DNA of 6,649 nt, taken from positions 1 through 6,649 of the forward strand of contig JAPDKB010000018.1 in the NCBI GenBank assembly GCA_029258795.1. Reading direction: 5' to 3'. Below, one piece after another: positions 1-6,649 of this stretch. Origin of the DNA: an archaeon. Its GTDB lineage: Archaea; EX4484-52; WAPT01. Positions within the stretch are counted from its first letter, which is position 1; every line of letters starts with the position of its first letter. A model generated the notes under the pieces. It saw nothing but the letters and a program-made list of their open reading frames with translations. It did not search any database and was not told the origin of the DNA. The position numbers and the translations under genes were made by a program.

Positions 1-3000
1 GTCCTTCTTTCTCCAGACCTCATATCCCACTGTAAACGATGTCCTGTCCTTTATCTTCAACCATATTGAGCCAGTGTCATGAGGCATTGCAAATTCAATA
101 ACAGGGGGACGTATTCTCCTTATAACTCTCTCCTTCTCAGAACTACCCTCCCAGTTAAACGCCTTCACCTTCACCTTAAGATTCTCAACGGTAGAGTGGA
201 TTACCGCACTATTTCTCCCCACAACGAGCATAGAATCTTTATAATCCTCGTCCACCTTTGCCCAGTAAACCCAGTAACCTATAACATCGTGAAGGTCGCT
301 CCATTCAATACCGAAAGAATCAGGAGAAACGGCAAAAGGAGTAATAAAGGCAATCTCTCCAGGTGGTCCATAAAAAGGATTATACACATAGAGCCCGTCA
401 TTCCTTCCTGCATAGTAAATGCCATTCCAGGAGTTGGAAAATATGTCCAGAGGAGATACCTCAACAACCTCAGGAGCACTACCCCACCGGGATGTTATCT
501 TCTCCCAGTTGTTATCCCTGTTTTTCTCAAGATACACCCCACATCCATACCAGCCAGTAGAAGCAATCAGCATCCCTTTCCTGTCAGAAGAAGCAAGAGA
601 GAGAACAGGAGAGTTTGCATCTATAAAATGACTCCTTATCCAGTATCTCTCAGGCTCATCCTTTGATGCTAAATCAGGTATTTGTGTCAAAACCTCGTCC
701 TTCCTGGCTATATAAACTCTCACTTCATTATTATCGTTTATCACTGCTATATCACGAACCTGTTCTTCATCCGGATCCTCGTAAATACGCTCATGAGTTC
801 CACTCCCCACATCCAGAATATGAACCTCGTATCCAGATGCAATATAAAGCGTGTTCGGTCTTAAATAGTGCCATGCAATACTTAAAGAATCCAGATGACC
901 AAACGGAAGAAATGGAGGAAAATAAGGAATATTCCAGGTCTTGCAAGTGTCAGAAGAAAGAGCAATTTCATGTTTTCCAACTCCGTTCATAGAAGCACTA
1001 TAGGCAATATAAGTTCTTCCATCTCCTGTAAAGATAATATCTTTCAACACACCATATATAACTTCTCCAGGTGTACCAGAACCCGGGATAGTATAGGTCA
1101 CGGTCTTAAAAGTTCTTCCTCCATTCTTACTCACATATAAAGTAAAGGTATTTCCAGAAGTATACTTTGAACCTGCAACTATCACTCTTCCATCACTGCT
1201 TACCGCAAGTTCGCATAAAGTAGGAGATGCCACACTCAGAATCTCGCTCCAGGTTTTTCCATAGTCTTTACTTTTATAAATCCTGTCTTTGGTAAGTGCA
1301 AAAACATACCTGCAGGAATCCTCTGCCACCTCTATATCTCTCACATCACCTGCAAGCCACTTGTTCCACCTCTTTGGATAAATAGGAGGCACCCGCATTA
1401 TAAAAGGACCCTCCGTTTCAGCGATAAGTTTTGCATGCCTTCCAAGATAATACTCCACTTTCACCTTCGCATAATTACAATCGGAAAGACCAGAGACATC
1501 CCAGGTGAGATAAAGGTCTCCTGGATCTGTTATTGTATCATACCCATCGTCCATAATCTTTATCCACGATGCTCCATTATTGGTGGAATAGAAAAACCTT
1601 CTTCTTACCCCATAGTCATTCGTCCACCAGTCCGTTCGATAATCAAGACTATCCCAGCCAACGAGCACCACCTCCCCCGGCATAGGACGCCGTGGAAGAA
1701 TCTTGGCGGAGTCTTTACGTTCTATAACAAAATATCTCTCTTTGTGGTCTCCTTCTGTCTCATAATCCCATATATACCCATTCATGTCATACAACCTTAT
1801 CCATGCATGGTAATCATCTTCTGGAAGTTTAAAAGGATTAGTTGCAAGAACAAGAGCATTCTTGGGATTTTCACATCTATATACCGGAATTCCTATACTT
1901 TTTACAAGTTCGTCTTTCCCTATCTCCACCTCTCTTATCAGTTCAACATGCGCCGTAAGAATGTTCCCAAAATCATTCACATTTGGATATAACCTTAAAG
2001 ATGCTCCCCTTCCATAATAATTATCCCCCCTCCAGTGGATATCTCCTTCATGAGAAAGAATAGGAGCAGCAGCGATAAGTCGTCCTCCAACTATCTCCTC
2101 ATCATCTATCATCCACTTTTTGATGAATTCGGTGGTGTAGGTGCAAGTTGTAAGAGCAAGTTCTGACACACCGTCATAACTGTGAGATGCATATATTACT
2201 GGATTAAACTGAGCGGAAGACAGATAAACCTGTGTTACTTCTACATCACCATCATTAGGATGTCCTGGTATAAATATTCCTTTATTTCCGGCTATCGTTG
2301 CAATACCTTCTGTAGGTTCAGCATCAAGAAATTCTGTAAACGGTTTTTCTACACCTGTGTTAATGTCTTTAAATGTTATGTTCTCATCTCCTTGCCTTCT
2401 ATCAGCAGACAACTCCCAATCCTCACCTACTCGCATCCAAGCAGGGTCCTCTGTAACCCAACTCCATATCAATTCAGCAACACTAAAGTCAAAATAATGG
2501 TTAGGAGTTCCTATCGTAAGAAGTTTCCTTACCTTAGACGCACATCCGTAATATTTCATAGCAGCTCGCGCAACTACTCCACCCATTGAATGAGCAACTA
2601 TGTCTACTTGAGAAGCACCTGTTGCAGCAAGGACTTTATCAATAAAATCGGCAAGATTCTTAGCCCATTTATCACCCGATAATGGATTATTAGGGCCGTA
2701 ATCATATCCGTACAGCCACTCACTTTGAGGGATTTCATCTTTTCTTCCTACTCTACCATTCGTACTAAGAATATATTGGCATACAAGTTCTCCGTTGCTT
2801 CCGATTACTCCCGGCCCCCCATCTATACGATAATAACTAAAATTAAAGATTCTTTTTGTCCCCTGACCTGGCATGAGCTCCGTAGTTTTATCACAAGTAA
2901 TAGCGGGACTGCCATCTGCCTTCAATCCATAACTGTAGCCTCCATAATGAGCGTCCGCAATCTTTGTCATGGCAGTGGGATATTTTAATGAACCATCAGG

Positions 3001-3192
3001 GTTCATAGGATACCAGGTGGTCCAACCGCCTTTAATTTCTATTATTTCTCCAGTTTCTTCATCCCTAACCTCCTTATATGGTGTGGCCTCTGATTTGTGC
3101 CCATGAACGAATATTATTGGGACATCAGAGGCAAACAATCCCAGTGAAAAGAGTATAAGAGAAATTAATGGAATGTTCCTTTTAAAAGTCAT
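1..3192 (-). CDS. Secreted multidomain lipase/esterase with Asp-box propeller and FN3 domains (C-terminus beyond window)
   Basis: I checked the frame codon by codon: it is open from ATG 3192 to the window edge (1064 residues, no stop). Residues 1-22 form a signal peptide (basic start, hydrophobic core, cleavage near LFA-SD). Residues 23-345 are an alpha/beta hydrolase: oxyanion-hole FVHGH (28-32), nucleophile elbow AHSMGG with Ser202, LLTIGTPNH (224-232), NDGD with likely catalytic Asp314, and ASHSYDG with likely His337. The 23-residue Asp-His spacing fits true lipases. About 505-597 is an Ig-like domain containing STNNGASW. About 604-940 carries Asp-box motifs SKDYGKTW (641), SKNGGRTF (688) and SSDTCKTW (746), indicating a sialidase-type beta-propeller. 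FN3-like domains follow from about 943 and 1029; the second is cut by the edge. GGAGGT lies 5 nt before ATG, inside the end of the upstream gene, whose stop overlaps this start (ATGA). Expected role: exported ester or lipid hydrolysis. Substrate is unknown and a sorting domain may follow. Confidence 0.9.
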   Translation of the reverse strand, partial: MTFKRNIPLISLILFSLGLFASDVPIIFVHGHKSEATPYKEVRDEETGEIIEIKGGWTTWYPMNPDGSLKYPTAMTKIADAHYGGYSYGLKADGSPAITCDKTTELMPGQGTKRIFNFSYYRIDGGPGVIGSNGELVCQYILSTNGRVGRKDEIPQSEWLYGYDYGPNNPLSGDKWAKNLADFIDKVLAATGASQVDIVAHSMGGVVARAAMKYYGCASKVRKLLTIGTPNHYFDFSVAELIWSWVTEDPAWMRVGEDWELSADRRQGDENITFKDINTGVEKPFTEFLDAEPTEGIATIAGNKGIFIPGHPNDGDVEVTQVYLSSAQFNPVIYASHSYDGVSELALTTCTYTTEFIKKWMIDDEEIVGGRLIAAAPILSHEGDIHWRGDNYYGRGASLRLYPNVNDFGNILTAHVELIREVEIGKDELVKSIGIPVYRCENPKNALVLATNPFKLPEDDYHAWIRLYDMNGYIWDYETEGDHKERYFVIERKDSAKILPRRPMPGEVVLVGWDSLDYRTDWWTNDYGVRRRFFYSTNNGASWIKIMDDGYDTITDPGDLYLTWDVSGLSDCNYAKVKVEYYLGRHAKLIAETEGPFIMRVPPIYPKRWNKWLAGDVRDIEVAEDSCRYVFALTKDRIYKSKDYGKTWSEILSVASPTLCELAVSSDGRVIVAGSKYTSGNTFTLYVSKNGGRTFKTVTYTIPGSGTPGEVIYGVLKDIIFTGDGRTYIAYSASMNGVGKHEIALSSDTCKTWNIPYFPPFLPFGHLDSLSIAWHYLRPNTLYIASGYEVHILDVGSGTHERIYEDPDEEQVRDIAVINDNNEVRVYIARKDEVLTQIPDLASKDEPERYWIRSHFIDANSPVLSLASSDRKGMLIASTGWYGCGVYLEKNRDNNWEKITSRWGSAPEVVEVSPLDIFSNSWNGIYYAGRNDGLYVYNPFYGPPGEIAFITPFAVSPDSFGIEWSDLHDVIGYWVYWAKVDEDYKDSMLVVGRNSAVIHSTVENLKVKVKAFNWEGSSEKERVIRRIRPPVIEFAMPHDTGSIWLKIKDRTSFTVGYEVWRKKD

Positions 3193-3764
3193 CTTACACC
3201 TCCTTTAAAATTATACTCTATTATAAAGCCTACACCATTCAAACAAAGACATACATGACTCCCTGTGGTTCTGCCTATATACCATATTCTTCCCATCATA
3301 TCTATGCGAAAGTATAACCATTTGGCTATTTGAAAAATACTTGAGATTCTATATCCATACCTATAATAATATTGAGGAGAATAGGAATAAATATAAGAAA
3401 GTCTTAATACGGACTTTTTATAAGCGTATCCTATCCACACCGGAAATAAATGAAACTCATAAAAAACATTACTGTATTTTTCTATCCGCGCCCACCCATA
3501 TCCCACTCCCACCTCAATCCTTTCCTTTTCATTTAGAGAATAAACTGCATTCACTTCTATTGAATTGAGCCAGTAAAGATGTGCTGCCAGATATTCAGGC
3601 AATTGATAAATTCCTGCTATAGGAGACGCTTCAAACGGCTTTGCCAAATCCTCTCCTGTCCAACACAGTCCCCCTGAATACCCAATGCCATAAGACAACT
3701 TCTTCCACAAAGGCACATCCTGATTGACTTCACCCGCTGATAAAAGCAAAAATACCATTACCAT
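3189..3764 (-). CDS. Putative small outer-membrane beta-barrel protein, 191 aa
   Basis: I do not recognise a named family. The protein starts with a short hydrophobic stretch (MVMVFLLLSAGEV) that could be a signal peptide, although it lacks the usual Lys/Arg before the core. The rest is rich in Tyr, Gly and Trp with alternating polar/nonpolar strands: YGIGYSGG, IEVGVGYGWARI, FPVWIGYAY, VLRLSYIYSYS, YRYGYRISSIF, LYFRIDMMGRIWYIG and VGFIIEYNF. This pattern and length suit an 8- to 10-stranded outer-membrane barrel, possibly a companion to the co-transcribed exported lipase. GGAGG lies 5 nt before ATG 3764; a second in-frame ATG two codons later is also possible. Its stop overlaps the lipase start by 4 nt, so the two are translationally coupled. 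Transcription probably starts at the promoter at 3902-3930 and must pass the terminator at about 3790-3843. Barrel assignment is inference from composition. Confidence 0.75.
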   Translation of the reverse strand: MVMVFLLLSAGEVNQDVPLWKKLSYGIGYSGGLCWTGEDLAKPFEASPIAGIYQLPEYLAAHLYWLNSIEVNAVYSLNEKERIEVGVGYGWARIEKYSNVFYEFHLFPVWIGYAYKKSVLRLSYIYSYSPQYYYRYGYRISSIFQIAKWLYFRIDMMGRIWYIGRTTGSHVCLCLNGVGFIIEYNFKGGVR

Positions 3765-3880
3765 CGCTCCCTCCTTTCCTTTGCCGTCTTTATAAACACA
3801 AAAACCCCTTCCTCCTTTTCCTCCCTCTCGGGATGGGAAGGGGCAAGATGGATGAGCATGAAATCTTTACAGTTTTTCAT
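3758..3880 (-). CDS. Leader-like small ORF (40 aa) reading through a terminator
   Basis: The ORF begins MKNCKDFMLIHLAPS, passes through PEREEKEEGVFVF and ends ERRERW at TAA 3758, overlapping the ATG of the 191-aa gene by 7 nt in another frame. GGAGG is 6 nt before the ATG, and a near-consensus promoter just upstream would give a 5' UTR of about 15 nt. The codons for residues 13-29 are the DNA of the hairpin terminator. A second ORF at 6275-6138 matches it over the first 29 codons without gaps. I infer a regulatory leader: a ribosome moving through would prevent hairpin formation and let transcription continue. No run of a single amino acid suggests amino-acid-specific attenuation. Identity with the second copy is strongest over the hairpin DNA, so selection may act on the RNA or DNA and the peptide may be incidental. 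The frame also stays open upstream into the degraded gene at 3911-4123. Confidence 0.45.
   Translation of the reverse strand: MKNCKDFMLIHLAPSHPEREEKEEGVFVFIKTAKERRERW
3790..3843 (-). terminator. Intrinsic terminator/attenuator upstream of the 191-aa gene
   Basis: On the minus strand CCCCTTCC (3843-3836) pairs with GGAAGGGG (3812-3805), an 8-bp stem, followed by TTTTTGTGTTTATAA. The 23-nt loop contains a second small hairpin, TCCC-GAGA-GGGA, with a GNRA-type loop. The U-tract ends about 16 nt before the GGAGG of the downstream gene, leaving no room for a promoter, so it must be read through for the strong upstream promoter to express that gene. Confidence 0.7.
3798..3880 (-). repeat. Leader-terminator module, copy A
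   Basis: The 35 nt at 3798-3832 are identical to 6193-6227. Alignment continues without gaps through the second stem arm (GGAAGGGG), AGATGGATGA and on to the leader ATG, whose position is exactly conserved. The module covers the terminator and the first 28 codons of the leader-like ORF, and a GGAGG site precedes it in both copies. Confidence 0.8.
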
Positions 3881-3901
3881 TCCTTTCCTCCTTATATTTT
3901 T

Positions 3902-3930
3902 ATTGTAACCCATTTTTCTCCATCTGTCAA
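3902..3930 (-). promoter_or_regulatory. Near-consensus sigma-70-type promoter
   Basis: The minus strand has TTGACA (3930-3925), exactly 17 nt, then TACAAT (3907-3902), one base from the ideal -10. The predicted start near 3895 gives a very short 5' UTR before the GGAGG and ATG 3880 of the leader-like ORF. It would drive leader, terminator, the 191-aa gene and the lipase as one unit. It overlaps the last codons of the degraded jelly-roll domain, consistent with that frame being dead. Confidence 0.7.
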
Positions 3931-4123
3931 CCCTCGCTTTTTCCCCTGCCACCAGCCTTATCTGTGCCCTATCTCCCTGAGGAATAAATTGAGTGTAAAC
4001 ATATCTCCATTCGTTATCTTCCCTTAAATTTCCACACATCGCATATGAACCAGTGGTATCCCTTATGTCCATCTTCGCCCTTCCCCCATCAAGGGAAGTC
4101 TTAATCCAGCCAGAGAGGAAATC
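3911..4123 (-). pseudogene. Remnant of a carbohydrate-binding-type jelly-roll domain
   Basis: Directly after an in-frame TAG (4124-4126) the minus strand reads DFLSGWIKTSLDGGRAK, then MDIRDTTG, EWRYVYTQFIPQGDRAQIRLV and ends near ARVDRWRKMG. The succession 'LSGWIKT..ggAk..i.dttG', 'W..v...F.p.gd.A.irL' and 'VDrw' is the second half of CBM4/9-like galactose-binding jelly rolls, where these are late strands and the final D lies near the ligand or metal edge. The front half of the domain is missing; upstream DNA is the inverted-repeat-bounded stretch. ATG 4072 lies inside the domain and has no good ribosome site, so I do not call an intact gene. The frame stays open through the promoter at 3902-3930 and merges with the leader ORF. 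Family assignment is from pattern only. Confidence 0.5.
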
Positions 4124-4131
4124 CTAATCTA

Positions 4132-4153
4132 AGCGACTTTTGTGGGCAAGGGG
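4132..4153 (+). repeat. Left inverted repeat of the 4127-4402 element
   Basis: AGCGACTTTTGTGG followed by GC and AAGGGG. It matches the complement of 4373-4392 with one mismatch in the 14-nt core and a 2-nt insertion before AAGGGG. A shared ATCTAA lies just outside at 4127-4132. Confidence 0.5.
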
Positions 4154-4365
4154 GAAAATGAAATACAGTATAAAATTTCCAGGGTTGAGGAAGAGGATGA
4201 GGGGTATTCTGGAAAACTCAAGCCTCATGTTGCCTGGTTTTTATGGGAGTGCTTCTGGTTCCATTTTCGGTATATAAAAGAAAGTGTAGGGATAAAACTC
4301 CGGAGGAAATTTTCCTTCTGTGGGGAAGTTTTTTGGAAATCCAGGATTCTTTCATCCACCACCCC

Positions 4366-4428
4366 TCATACACCCCTTCCACAAAAATCGCTCAATTTAG
4401 ATAAAAAAGAGATAGCCTTCCTCAACAT
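4366..4428 (-). pseudogene. Probable 5' stub of an interrupted gene (20 codons)
   Basis: An AGGAGGT site made by the last codons of the 579-aa gene sits 5 nt before ATG 4428, and the gap from the previous stop is only 3 nt. This is the arrangement of a translationally coupled next gene in an operon. However, the ORF reads MLRKAISFLSKLSDFCGRGV and stops at TGA 4366. Its first 9-12 codons lie outside the inverted repeat at 4373-4402, and the remainder lies inside it. I read it as the original start of a secreted protein gene (basic n-region plus hydrophobic residues) cut by the element at 4127-4402, perhaps the same gene whose C-terminal domain survives at 3911-4123. It could instead be a genuine 20-aa peptide. 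Confidence 0.4.
4373..4392 (-). repeat. Right inverted repeat of the 4127-4402 element
   Basis: On the minus strand this reads AGCGATTTTTGTGG then AAGGGG, the partner of the repeat at 4132-4153. The outer ATCTAA lies at 4397-4402, separated from the core by 4 nt that the left end lacks. Confidence 0.5.
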
Positions 4429-4431
4429 AAC

Positions 4432-6171
4432 TCACCTCCTTTTTAAACGAATTACTTTTCCCCTTCTTATTAAGTCTTCATCATGACCTACAAGGAAATA
4501 TACCCCACTTGGCACCTCTTTTCCTTCCTTATCCTTACCGTCCCATCTAAGATTAAGATACCCAAAAAAGTCCCTCTCTCCACTTAAAACCGCCCTCTCC
4601 CTGCCAAGAACATCATACACCCTTACCTCGTCCGCCTTTACCCTTATGTTCACTTCCCTATCAAACACTTCAGGATAAACATAAACACCAGAAATATTAT
4701 AAGGATCCACAAAAGTATCATTGCCCTCAAACACAAAAATTTTGCCTCTGTGAGCAGCTATGAGATTCCTTTTGTAAAGAATCGGGAAATAATCTGTAGC
4801 GGATAAAAAGGATGCAGGAGTCCCAACACTGTCACTCTGATAAACCATCTGTCCACTATCTAAGTCAAAAGCAAATATCCAATCTCCAGAAACCCAGATA
4901 AGGTCATTTGAAGTGATGGTGATGGAACCAATCCCTGTATATCTTCCATAAAAAGTATCAGCCCATACCATTTCTCCAGTCTCTCCATCAAATCTACGAA
5001 GTACTACATTTAACACACTATCCTGAACCAGCCAGTATTCCTGTGCTCCTATTACAGCGTTGCCTTTAGAAGATAAAATTAATGTAGGAAATGTATCTAC
5101 TTTCCATATCAAAGTGCCCCGTCTTTCATCGATGGAATAGAGTTTCTCTCGCAGAGATGAAAAAATAACCATGGAAGAAGAAACCATTTTGCTCATTATC
5201 CACTCCTCTATTTCATAAGCCCATAAAAAATTCCCTGTCCAAGCATTAAGAGAGAGCAAAGCACAGTTCTCATCACCTCCATATATTTTTCCTTCATAAA
5301 ATGAGGGTGTCTCATGAAATCCTCCTCTTCTTCTCCAGAGTTCATTCCCTCTTAAACTTATCGCCGTTAATGTTCCTCCGTATAAATTTGGAGCGTATAC
5401 AATCGTTTCCACCACTATGGGAGAAAATTCCACAGTATGTAAAAACTTACTCCACCTTACATCTCCTGTAAAGGCGTCAAGACAATAAAAGGTGGGACTC
5501 AAAGTATCCCATCCTATACTCGTCCCCACAAACAGAAGAGAATCACCAGCAGAAAGGGCACATGTCCAAACATTTGAAGTCAACTCCCTCGCCCATACCT
5601 CCTCACCAGTCTCTATGTCCAGCGCAACAACCCAATTTATACAATGAGTCCAGTCACTACGAACATATAGCATACCATTCCCGGCACAGGCAGATACCAT
5701 GGTATAATCAGGACTGCCATACTCAGGATGAGGCTTACCATACTCCCACCTCAACTCCAGCGGAGGATAAAGAGGAAAAGGATAATAGCCCGTATGCTGT
5801 GCATCATAACCAAGCATCCTCCAGGAATAAAGAGTATCAGATGAATCAATAACTGTTTTCCTCCGATGGCAATAATACCCTGATTCTGCATCTTTTTCCA
5901 CCTTCACCTCAATATCCTTTACCTCTTTTTCCTTAACCTCTCCGCCTGAAAAATAAGCAACCACCTTTATCCTTATCCCTCCCTTAGGAGGCTCCCCCTT
6001 AACAACCCACCTGAAGGTATCCTTAATGGAGGATGAAATAAAAGGATACCGATAAACTCCCACAGGATACCAGTCTTTACCATCAGGAGAATAGTAAATC
6101 TCAACCTTTCTTGTCCCCTTCTCAACCTCAAATGGTATCACAACCTGAGTAAGGGCAAAAACCAGAAGCAT
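4432..6171 (-). CDS. Secreted PQQ-type beta-propeller protein with C-terminal FlgD-like/T9SS-style sorting domain, 579 aa
   Basis: Residues 1-13 are a short hydrophobic export signal without basic residues. About 14-92 is an Ig-like domain (IYYSPDGKDWYPVG, then DTFRWVV and IRIKVVAYFSG). About 112-485 is a propeller: it opens with the typical WRMLGYDAQHTGYY and has seven PQQ-like strand motifs, for example ALDIETGEEVWARE (183), CLDAFTGDVRW (230), SLNAWTGNFLW (307), SIDERRGTLIW (346), RFDGETGEMVW (393) and FDLDSGQMVY (435). This fold is normally structural or ligand-binding and does not itself show cofactor use. About 494-579 is the tail domain VRVYDVLGRE, LRWDGKDKEGKEVPSGVYF, GKVIRLKRR, matching FlgD-like Ig and type IX secretion C-terminal sorting domains, so surface delivery is likely. 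GGAGG is 4 nt before ATG, and an in-frame TAA six codons upstream excludes an earlier start. The terminator at 6186-6238 lies directly upstream. Confidence 0.88.
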   Translation of the reverse strand: MLLVFALTQVVIPFEVEKGTRKVEIYYSPDGKDWYPVGVYRYPFISSSIKDTFRWVVKGEPPKGGIRIKVVAYFSGGEVKEKEVKDIEVKVEKDAESGYYCHRRKTVIDSSDTLYSWRMLGYDAQHTGYYPFPLYPPLELRWEYGKPHPEYGSPDYTMVSACAGNGMLYVRSDWTHCINWVVALDIETGEEVWARELTSNVWTCALSAGDSLLFVGTSIGWDTLSPTFYCLDAFTGDVRWSKFLHTVEFSPIVVETIVYAPNLYGGTLTAISLRGNELWRRRGGFHETPSFYEGKIYGGDENCALLSLNAWTGNFLWAYEIEEWIMSKMVSSSMVIFSSLREKLYSIDERRGTLIWKVDTFPTLILSSKGNAVIGAQEYWLVQDSVLNVVLRRFDGETGEMVWADTFYGRYTGIGSITITSNDLIWVSGDWIFAFDLDSGQMVYQSDSVGTPASFLSATDYFPILYKRNLIAAHRGKIFVFEGNDTFVDPYNISGVYVYPEVFDREVNIRVKADEVRVYDVLGRERAVLSGERDFFGYLNLRWDGKDKEGKEVPSGVYFLVGHDEDLIRRGKVIRLKRR

Positions 6172-6275
6172 CTCCCCTCCTGCGTGTTAAAAACAAAAAC
6201 CCCTTCCTCCTTTTCCTCCCTCTCGGGCGGGGAAGGGGTGAGATGGATGAATAGAAAATTTTTACAAGCATTCAT
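6138..6275 (-). CDS. Leader-like small ORF (45 aa), second copy, reading through a terminator
   Basis: The ORF starts MNACKNFLFIHLTPS, shares PEREEKEEGVFVF exactly with the ORF at 3880-3758, then diverges and ends at TGA 6138-6140, overlapping the 579-aa gene start (6171) by 34 nt in another frame. GGAGG lies 5 nt before ATG 6275. The upstream gene stops at 6294, so the ORF could be translated from that mRNA by reinitiation; I see no convincing promoter of its own. As in the other copy, the hairpin terminator lies within the ORF and the ORF frame is offset the same way (2 nt mod 3) from the downstream gene. It is either an attenuator leader or a translated repeat; the paired arrangement favours regulation but does not prove it. 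Confidence 0.4.
   Translation of the reverse strand: MNACKNFLFIHLTPSPPEREEKEEGVFVFNTQEGRCFWFLPLLRL
6186..6238 (-). terminator. Intrinsic terminator/attenuator upstream of the 579-aa gene
   Basis: On the minus strand CCCCTTCC (6238-6231) pairs with GGAAGGGG (6207-6200), followed by TTTTTGTTTTTAA, a strong U-tract. The loop again has CCC-GAGA-GGG. It follows the stop of the partial gene at 6294 and ends only about 6 nt before the GGAGG at 6176-6180 of the next gene. It may serve as a simple terminator for the upstream gene, but its position directly before a ribosome site in the same orientation suggests conditional read-through. Confidence 0.75.
6193..6275 (-). repeat. Leader-terminator module, copy B
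   Basis: Direct repeat of 3798-3880 in the same orientation: 35-nt identical core at 6193-6227, matching stem arm and AGATGGATGA, then an ungapped but more divergent stretch to ATG 6275. Beyond the U-tract the two copies differ, and the distance from leader ATG to downstream ATG is 104 nt here against 116 nt in copy A. Confidence 0.8.
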
Positions 6276-6293
6276 CTCTCCCTCCTTTTTACT

Positions 6294-6649
6294 TCATTTT
6301 ACATTTTCTACCCTGAATACAACTTCAAAGTTCTTGGGCTCCATCTCCTCTATCCAGACAAGATAAAGTCTCCCATCCCGGATAACACCATCAGGATTCC
6401 TTGAAAAATAAGGAGTCTCAATCCTGTGAGTCTCAAACTCATTCCCATCCCAGGCACTCCAGTAAAGATCAGCAGTACTCCCCTCTATCTTCCACCATAA
6501 AAGATAAAGGTCAGAACCATGAAAAAATATCCTGTCAAGCCTCGGCTTACCACACATGGGAAAGGTATCAACAGAAGACCATGAAGTATCCTCCTTGACC
6601 ATATAGGCAATGTTATAAGTCCCAAAACCACAGTGAAAATGAGGATCAT
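6294..6649 (-). CDS. C-terminal end of a secreted propeller-like protein (partial, 117 codons)
   Basis: The frame is open from the window edge to TGA 6294-6296, so the gene begins outside. The visible part has repeated beta-strand units with aromatic cores: TYNIAYMVKEDTSW, SDLYLLWWKIEG, ADLYWSAWDGNEF, and GRLYLVWIEE followed by FEVVFRVENV. Alternating 'lyLvW' strands and 'W..WDG.eF' turns resemble exported BNR/sialidase-like or YVTN-like propeller proteins, but no catalytic residue or named family is recognisable from this fragment. It has no FlgD/T9SS-type sorting tail, unlike the next gene. The stop is followed after 8 nt by the ribosome site of the small ORF at 6275, then by a terminator, which probably ends most transcripts of this gene. 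Confidence 0.75.
   Translation of the reverse strand, partial: DPHFHCGFGTYNIAYMVKEDTSWSSVDTFPMCGKPRLDRIFFHGSDLYLLWWKIEGSTADLYWSAWDGNEFETHRIETPYFSRNPDGVIRDGRLYLVWIEEMEPKNFEVVFRVENVK

Follow-up and report, generated by a model that had tools for sequence, protein, structure and literature searches.

The window analysed here (the whole stretch of 6,649 nt, contig C14 of assembly G000) carries, on its minus strand, a promoter, a short leader open reading frame (ORF) and a terminator-like hairpin that lies inside that ORF, immediately ahead of a gene encoding a 191-residue protein and a lipase-like partner. The leader, which an earlier sequence-only reading had described at this one site, is not a one-off element: it is a repeated cassette that precedes at least nine genes, most of which appear to encode secreted or surface-type proteins, in one uncultured bacterial lineage. 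We propose that the cassette is an attenuator whose read-through would depend on translation of the leader, in the manner of the Escherichia coli pyrBI operon, and we give this reading a probability of roughly 0.58.

Leader copies in the window

The sequence-only reading listed a promoter, a GGAGG, a 40-codon ORF with a hairpin and U-tract inside it, a second GGAGG and an overlapping gene start, and every one of these elements lies where it was said to lie. On the minus strand, the predicted promoter TTGACA-17-TACAAT (3902-3930; −35 at 3930-3925, a 17-nt spacer and −10 at 3907-3902) scores 11/12 to consensus and is the top promoter-like match within the window. Transcription is predicted to start near 3895, upstream of a putative Shine-Dalgarno (SD) sequence, GGAGG, at 3887-3891 and the 40-codon leader ORF MKNCKDFMLIHLAPSHPEREEKEEGVFVFIKTAKERRERW at 3758-3880 (ATG at 3880, TAA at 3760-3758). 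Inside this ORF, at 3794-3843, is a hairpin resembling an intrinsic terminator, in which CCCCUUCC (3843-3836) pairs with GGAAGGGG (3812-3805) outside an inner CCC/GGG stem and is followed by the U-tract UUUUUGUGUUU (3804-3794). Its folding energy is -21.5 kcal/mol (z -2.2). A standard terminator scan of the window did not report the hairpin, because the 23 nt between the outer arms exceed the loop limit of the scan.

The first gene of the putatively controlled operon (3189-3764, minus strand, 191 aa) begins at an ATG (3764-3762) that overlaps the leader stop, and is preceded by an SD of its own, GGAGGG, at 3774-3769. Its product has no Pfam match; a protein search identified relatives at loci L018 (61% in the best segment) and L017 (39%). 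The second gene (1-3192, minus strand, extending past the window edge) encodes a lipase-like alpha/beta hydrolase with BNR-like repeats, with Pfam matches above cut-off to PF01674, PF07819 and PF00561, all of the lipase-type alpha/beta-hydrolase kind. The pair had been called a barrel-lipase operon, and these matches bear out the lipase half of that name, while the barrel is unproven because the first gene lacks a Pfam match. Upstream, the −35/−10 pair overlaps what is left of the 3′ end of a gene with a carbohydrate-binding domain (minus strand, 3897 to ~4072-4400), whose counterpart at L018:1581-4877 is intact. The remnant in one genome and the intact gene in the other suggest that this leader was copied together with the end of the gene that once adjoined it.

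A second copy of the leader lies elsewhere in the window, as a 107-nt direct repeat (79% identical) at 6188-6294, ahead of a beta-propeller gene. Its leader ORF (6138-6275, minus strand, 45 codons) has no TTGACA of its own and begins 18 nt after the stop of the upstream gene. The hairpin and U-tract occupy 6189-6238 on the same strand, with arms at 6238-6231 and 6207-6200 and a folding energy of -23.0 kcal/mol, and the gene behind them (4432-6171, minus strand) encodes a PQQ/BamB-type beta-propeller with a weak C-terminal match of the type IX secretion kind. When window positions 6271-6294 are compared with the counterpart junction in the related genome JAPDKE01 (L053:4452-4475), the two sequences cease to be homologous at the start codon of the leader. 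They share the upstream gene, the SD and the ATG, but in the relative a different gene follows directly, with no leader. Because the same SD and ATG thus precede another gene, the second window copy seems to have been joined onto a pre-existing SD and start codon within an operon.

Distribution of the cassette and assignment of the window contig

Searching with the protein of the first gene led to L018 (JAPDKE010000046.1), a close relative of the window locus that has the same leader, identically placed, in assembly JAPDKE01 (G061 below). DNA searches, including nhmmer, and RNA-model searches found about a dozen leader copies in G061, degenerate and truncated ones among them, on contigs C13, C16, C25, C26, C28 and C47. 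Our detailed comparison covered 13 copies, the two window copies included. Nine of these have an intact hairpin, and the copies at C25, C26, C13_31k and C13_5787 are degenerate. Every intact copy sits immediately before a gene in sense orientation. The genes themselves vary: they comprise the window gene family with its lipase-like partner, a PQQ propeller, an LVIVD-repeat protein, PD40 and BNR-type propellers, a C25-type peptidase and several genes without assignment. By eye, we judged most of the products to carry N-terminal signal or lipoprotein-like sequences.

Two further features were seen. Amid the leader-bearing genes of G061 lies a 438-aa ORF (L052:4879-6195, minus strand) that, as read from its sequence, resembles an IS256-type transposase. 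The gene at L053:4475-5665 (minus strand) and a matching gene at L057 from 3784 onward encode products beginning MSKH(R/K)RDLVIYAVSSSSRKE; these genes contain a second, weakly similar hairpin with a U-run in their first 30 codons, before the part that codes for a lipoprotein-like signal sequence.

Among relatives of G000 (61 genomes searched by DNA, 34 by RNA model), there were no true copies beyond the short contig C14; contig C16 of G000 holds a truncated cassette edge, and no copies were found in the other 33 genomes of the phylum of G000. A match in G046 was rejected as unrelated sequence lacking the U-tract. An RNA-model search of 147 genomes from the phylum of G061, a set that contains a MAG labelled candidate division TA06, gave convincing copies in G061 only and none in the other 146. 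Weak matches in those genomes were ordinary palindromic repeats or chance. No cassette copies were found in viral contigs, plasmids or phages.

The tetranucleotide profile of C14 correlates better with G061 (r 0.90) than with the main G000 contigs (0.78), and C14 and G061 have segments in common that are 94-97% identical; sampled G000 contigs and sampled G061 contigs share no segments. From this composition and these near-identical segments, we conclude that C14 and C16 are probably mis-binned in G000 and belong with G061. The 41-kb contig C8 of G000 is likewise G061-like in composition.

Conservation of the leader elements and alternative readings

The layout of the window locus recurs in the other copies, with conserved promoter, SD, ATG and hairpin and a reading frame that is open over the hairpin. 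In 12 of the 13 copies, TTGACA is followed 16-18 nt later by a −10-like element, the exception being the second window copy. The −10 hexamers seen are TACAAT, TATCCT, TAACCT, TACCCT, TATTCT, CATAAT and TATAAT, and their distance from the leader ATG is about 16-22 nt. The ATG is invariant in all 13 copies, as is the presence of an SD-like purine stretch before it, although adjacent bases change.

In all nine intact copies, the leader ORF passes through the hairpin uninterrupted and reaches or overruns the gene start, and the other two frames are interrupted by stops. Leader stops range from 3 nt ahead of the gene start to far inside the gene, with five of nine falling between 3 nt before and 8 nt past it. 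At C13_10407 (L053:9649-10449, minus strand), the leader is fused in frame to its gene, so that the hairpin becomes part of the coding frame of the gene itself. Two copies in which the hairpin region is replaced have leaders of only 17 codons. Beyond the hairpin the sequence has diverged, with indels, and its chance of remaining open is 42-78% per copy (an open-frame chance per copy was also put at 8-33%); the product of the post-hairpin chances is 0.0046 if the copies are independent, which, as duplicates, they are not. Direct evidence for leader translation is confined to the SD, the ATG and this open frame.

Variation is lower in the paired columns of the hairpin than elsewhere: 3/16 arm columns and 0/6 inner-stem columns vary, versus 20/33 columns across leader codons 2-12 (p = 0.0009 by permutation). 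The arms are kept while loop, leader and downstream stretch change. A strict terminator scan, which called perfect stems of at least 7 pairs followed by a U-tract, found 13 sites in 212 kb of G061, a sample that includes regions chosen because they carry leaders; six of the 13 are leaders, and first-order Markov controls gave 0-3 sites.

These features could also belong to a promoter and attenuator that work independently of leader translation, the ORF being a by-product; a protein, small RNA or alternative fold might do the sensing of the conserved leader RNA, or the terminator might just let through a constant share of polymerases. We regard this as rather unlikely. It draws on the absence of codon-level selection in the leader, where 10 of 43 changes are synonymous (null mean 8.2, p = 0.29), a result that fits passage of the ribosome alone and untranslated RNA equally well. 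It also draws on the conserved 5′ region, for which RNAalifold predicts a possible stem between the leader SD and UCAUCC (pairs in 96.9% of cells across the 13 copies), and on candidate alternative pairings of the leader SD with the hairpin 5′ arm and of that arm with the gene SD (-6 to -18 kcal/mol). Covariation in the 5′ stem, however, is not beyond chance (152/500 shuffles), and Rfam, searched for riboswitches, T-boxes and protein leaders, gave no match above the gathering score, the low-scoring ones looking like chance. The retention of SD and ATG throughout, with the frame open past every intact hairpin, likewise counts against this reading. Given the lack of synonymous bias in the leader codons, the functional part is plausibly the act of translation and not the peptide. 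A functional small peptide as the leader product, whether a stalling peptide or a secreted small protein, is highly improbable: most copies share the core MRNCKxFMVIHLTPS, but variable columns are spread evenly over the codon positions (13/10/14), there is no control-codon run, the C-terminal ends are wholly different, and neither window leader has an NCBIfam match.

The cassette might instead have no part in regulation, being a dispersed repeat or a segmental duplication whose promoter and terminator hitch-hiked with copied gene segments. Several copies do share the upstream 3′ end of the carbohydrate-binding-domain gene, ending VDRWKKWVTIKI, which their promoters overlap, and the overlap alone could explain promoter conservation there. 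Duplication and domain shuffling of the genes, the degeneracy of some copies and the confinement of the cassette to one lineage point the same way. At C28, C13_9573, C13_6585 and C13_5787, however, the upstream DNA is unrelated and non-coding, and the hexamers are kept while the spacer has changed. Together with hairpin arms that are conserved against changing surroundings and intact copies placed directly ahead of genes in sense orientation, this makes passive copying improbable.

Proposed mechanism and comparison with known systems

On the preferred reading, a translation-dependent attenuator, polymerase would initiate about 15 nt upstream of the leader ATG. With no ribosome close behind, the CCCCUUCC/GGAAGGGG hairpin would form and the transcript would end at roughly 100 nt; a ribosome on the leader and near the polymerase would cover the 5′ arm, prevent the hairpin and permit read-through into the gene. 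Finishing at or just beyond the gene start, the leader ribosome would favour re-initiation there, and copying of the cassette would have placed this arrangement before at least nine genes. The sequence-only reading had proposed such translation-controlled attenuation at the window locus, and the layout and its conservation across copies suggest that it was probably right; that transcripts terminate, that this depends on translation, that leader and gene are translationally coupled and that a signal is involved are steps that we infer.

In E. coli, terminators in the first 100 bp of coding regions are rarely suppressed unless polymerase pauses (PMC4824070). For that reason, most cassette transcripts may by default end within the leader, and read-through would need an element that makes polymerase pause, for which the 5′ stem is a candidate. 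The leader RNA contains only 25% U from start to hairpin, which makes pyrBI-like sensing of UTP unlikely. More tentatively, the cassette might be a portable translation-gated attenuator that builds a regulon through transcription-translation coupling with no DNA-binding regulator, its SD-containing 5′ hairpin setting the timing; this is possible, though we would not favour it.

The best-known case of control in which the ribosome itself crosses the terminator is a single E. coli operon, pyrBI. If the preferred reading is correct, a leader family before at least nine genes would show that pyrBI logic can spread as a cassette and be used as a regulon, here in an uncultured lineage without genetics. 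The cassette copies also provide ready-made variation in promoter, leader and terminator for reporter assays of coupling in a laboratory host.

The cassette resembles the trp and his attenuators in having a leader ORF and an intrinsic terminator ahead of an operon. It differs from them in having no control-codon run, in having as candidate antiterminator only a possible 5′ stem that lacks covariation support, and in a leader that does not end before the terminator. Like the intrinsic terminators described within coding regions (PMC4824070), its hairpin would lie in translated RNA and be suppressible by translation; unlike them, it is both conserved and strong, and a dedicated promoter stands directly before it.

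The closest likeness is to pyrBI. The sequence-only reading took the crossing of the hairpin as a mark of novelty, on the ground that classical attenuators end the leader before the terminator; that distinction falls, since the pyrBI terminator sits within the 135-bp leader peptide gene (PMC4824070), its hairpin is prevented by a coupled ribosome (PMC10135430), and tight coupling across the leader is required (PMC5021804). At the level of sequence, the cassette shares with pyrBI (pyrL) a promoter, an SD-led leader ORF and an intrinsic terminator lying within this ORF, whose stop codon comes further downstream (9/9 intact copies), and by analogy the ribosome would have to trail polymerase closely to block the hairpin. 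Its leader RNA has 25% U versus 49% in the pyrL template (PMC10135430), and so lacks the U-richness that induces polymerase pausing at low UTP; its genes are of secreted or surface type rather than pyrimidine genes, and its leader stop usually overlaps or passes the gene start. The layout class is therefore that of pyrBI and has a precedent. What is new is the repetition of the cassette ahead of many genes.
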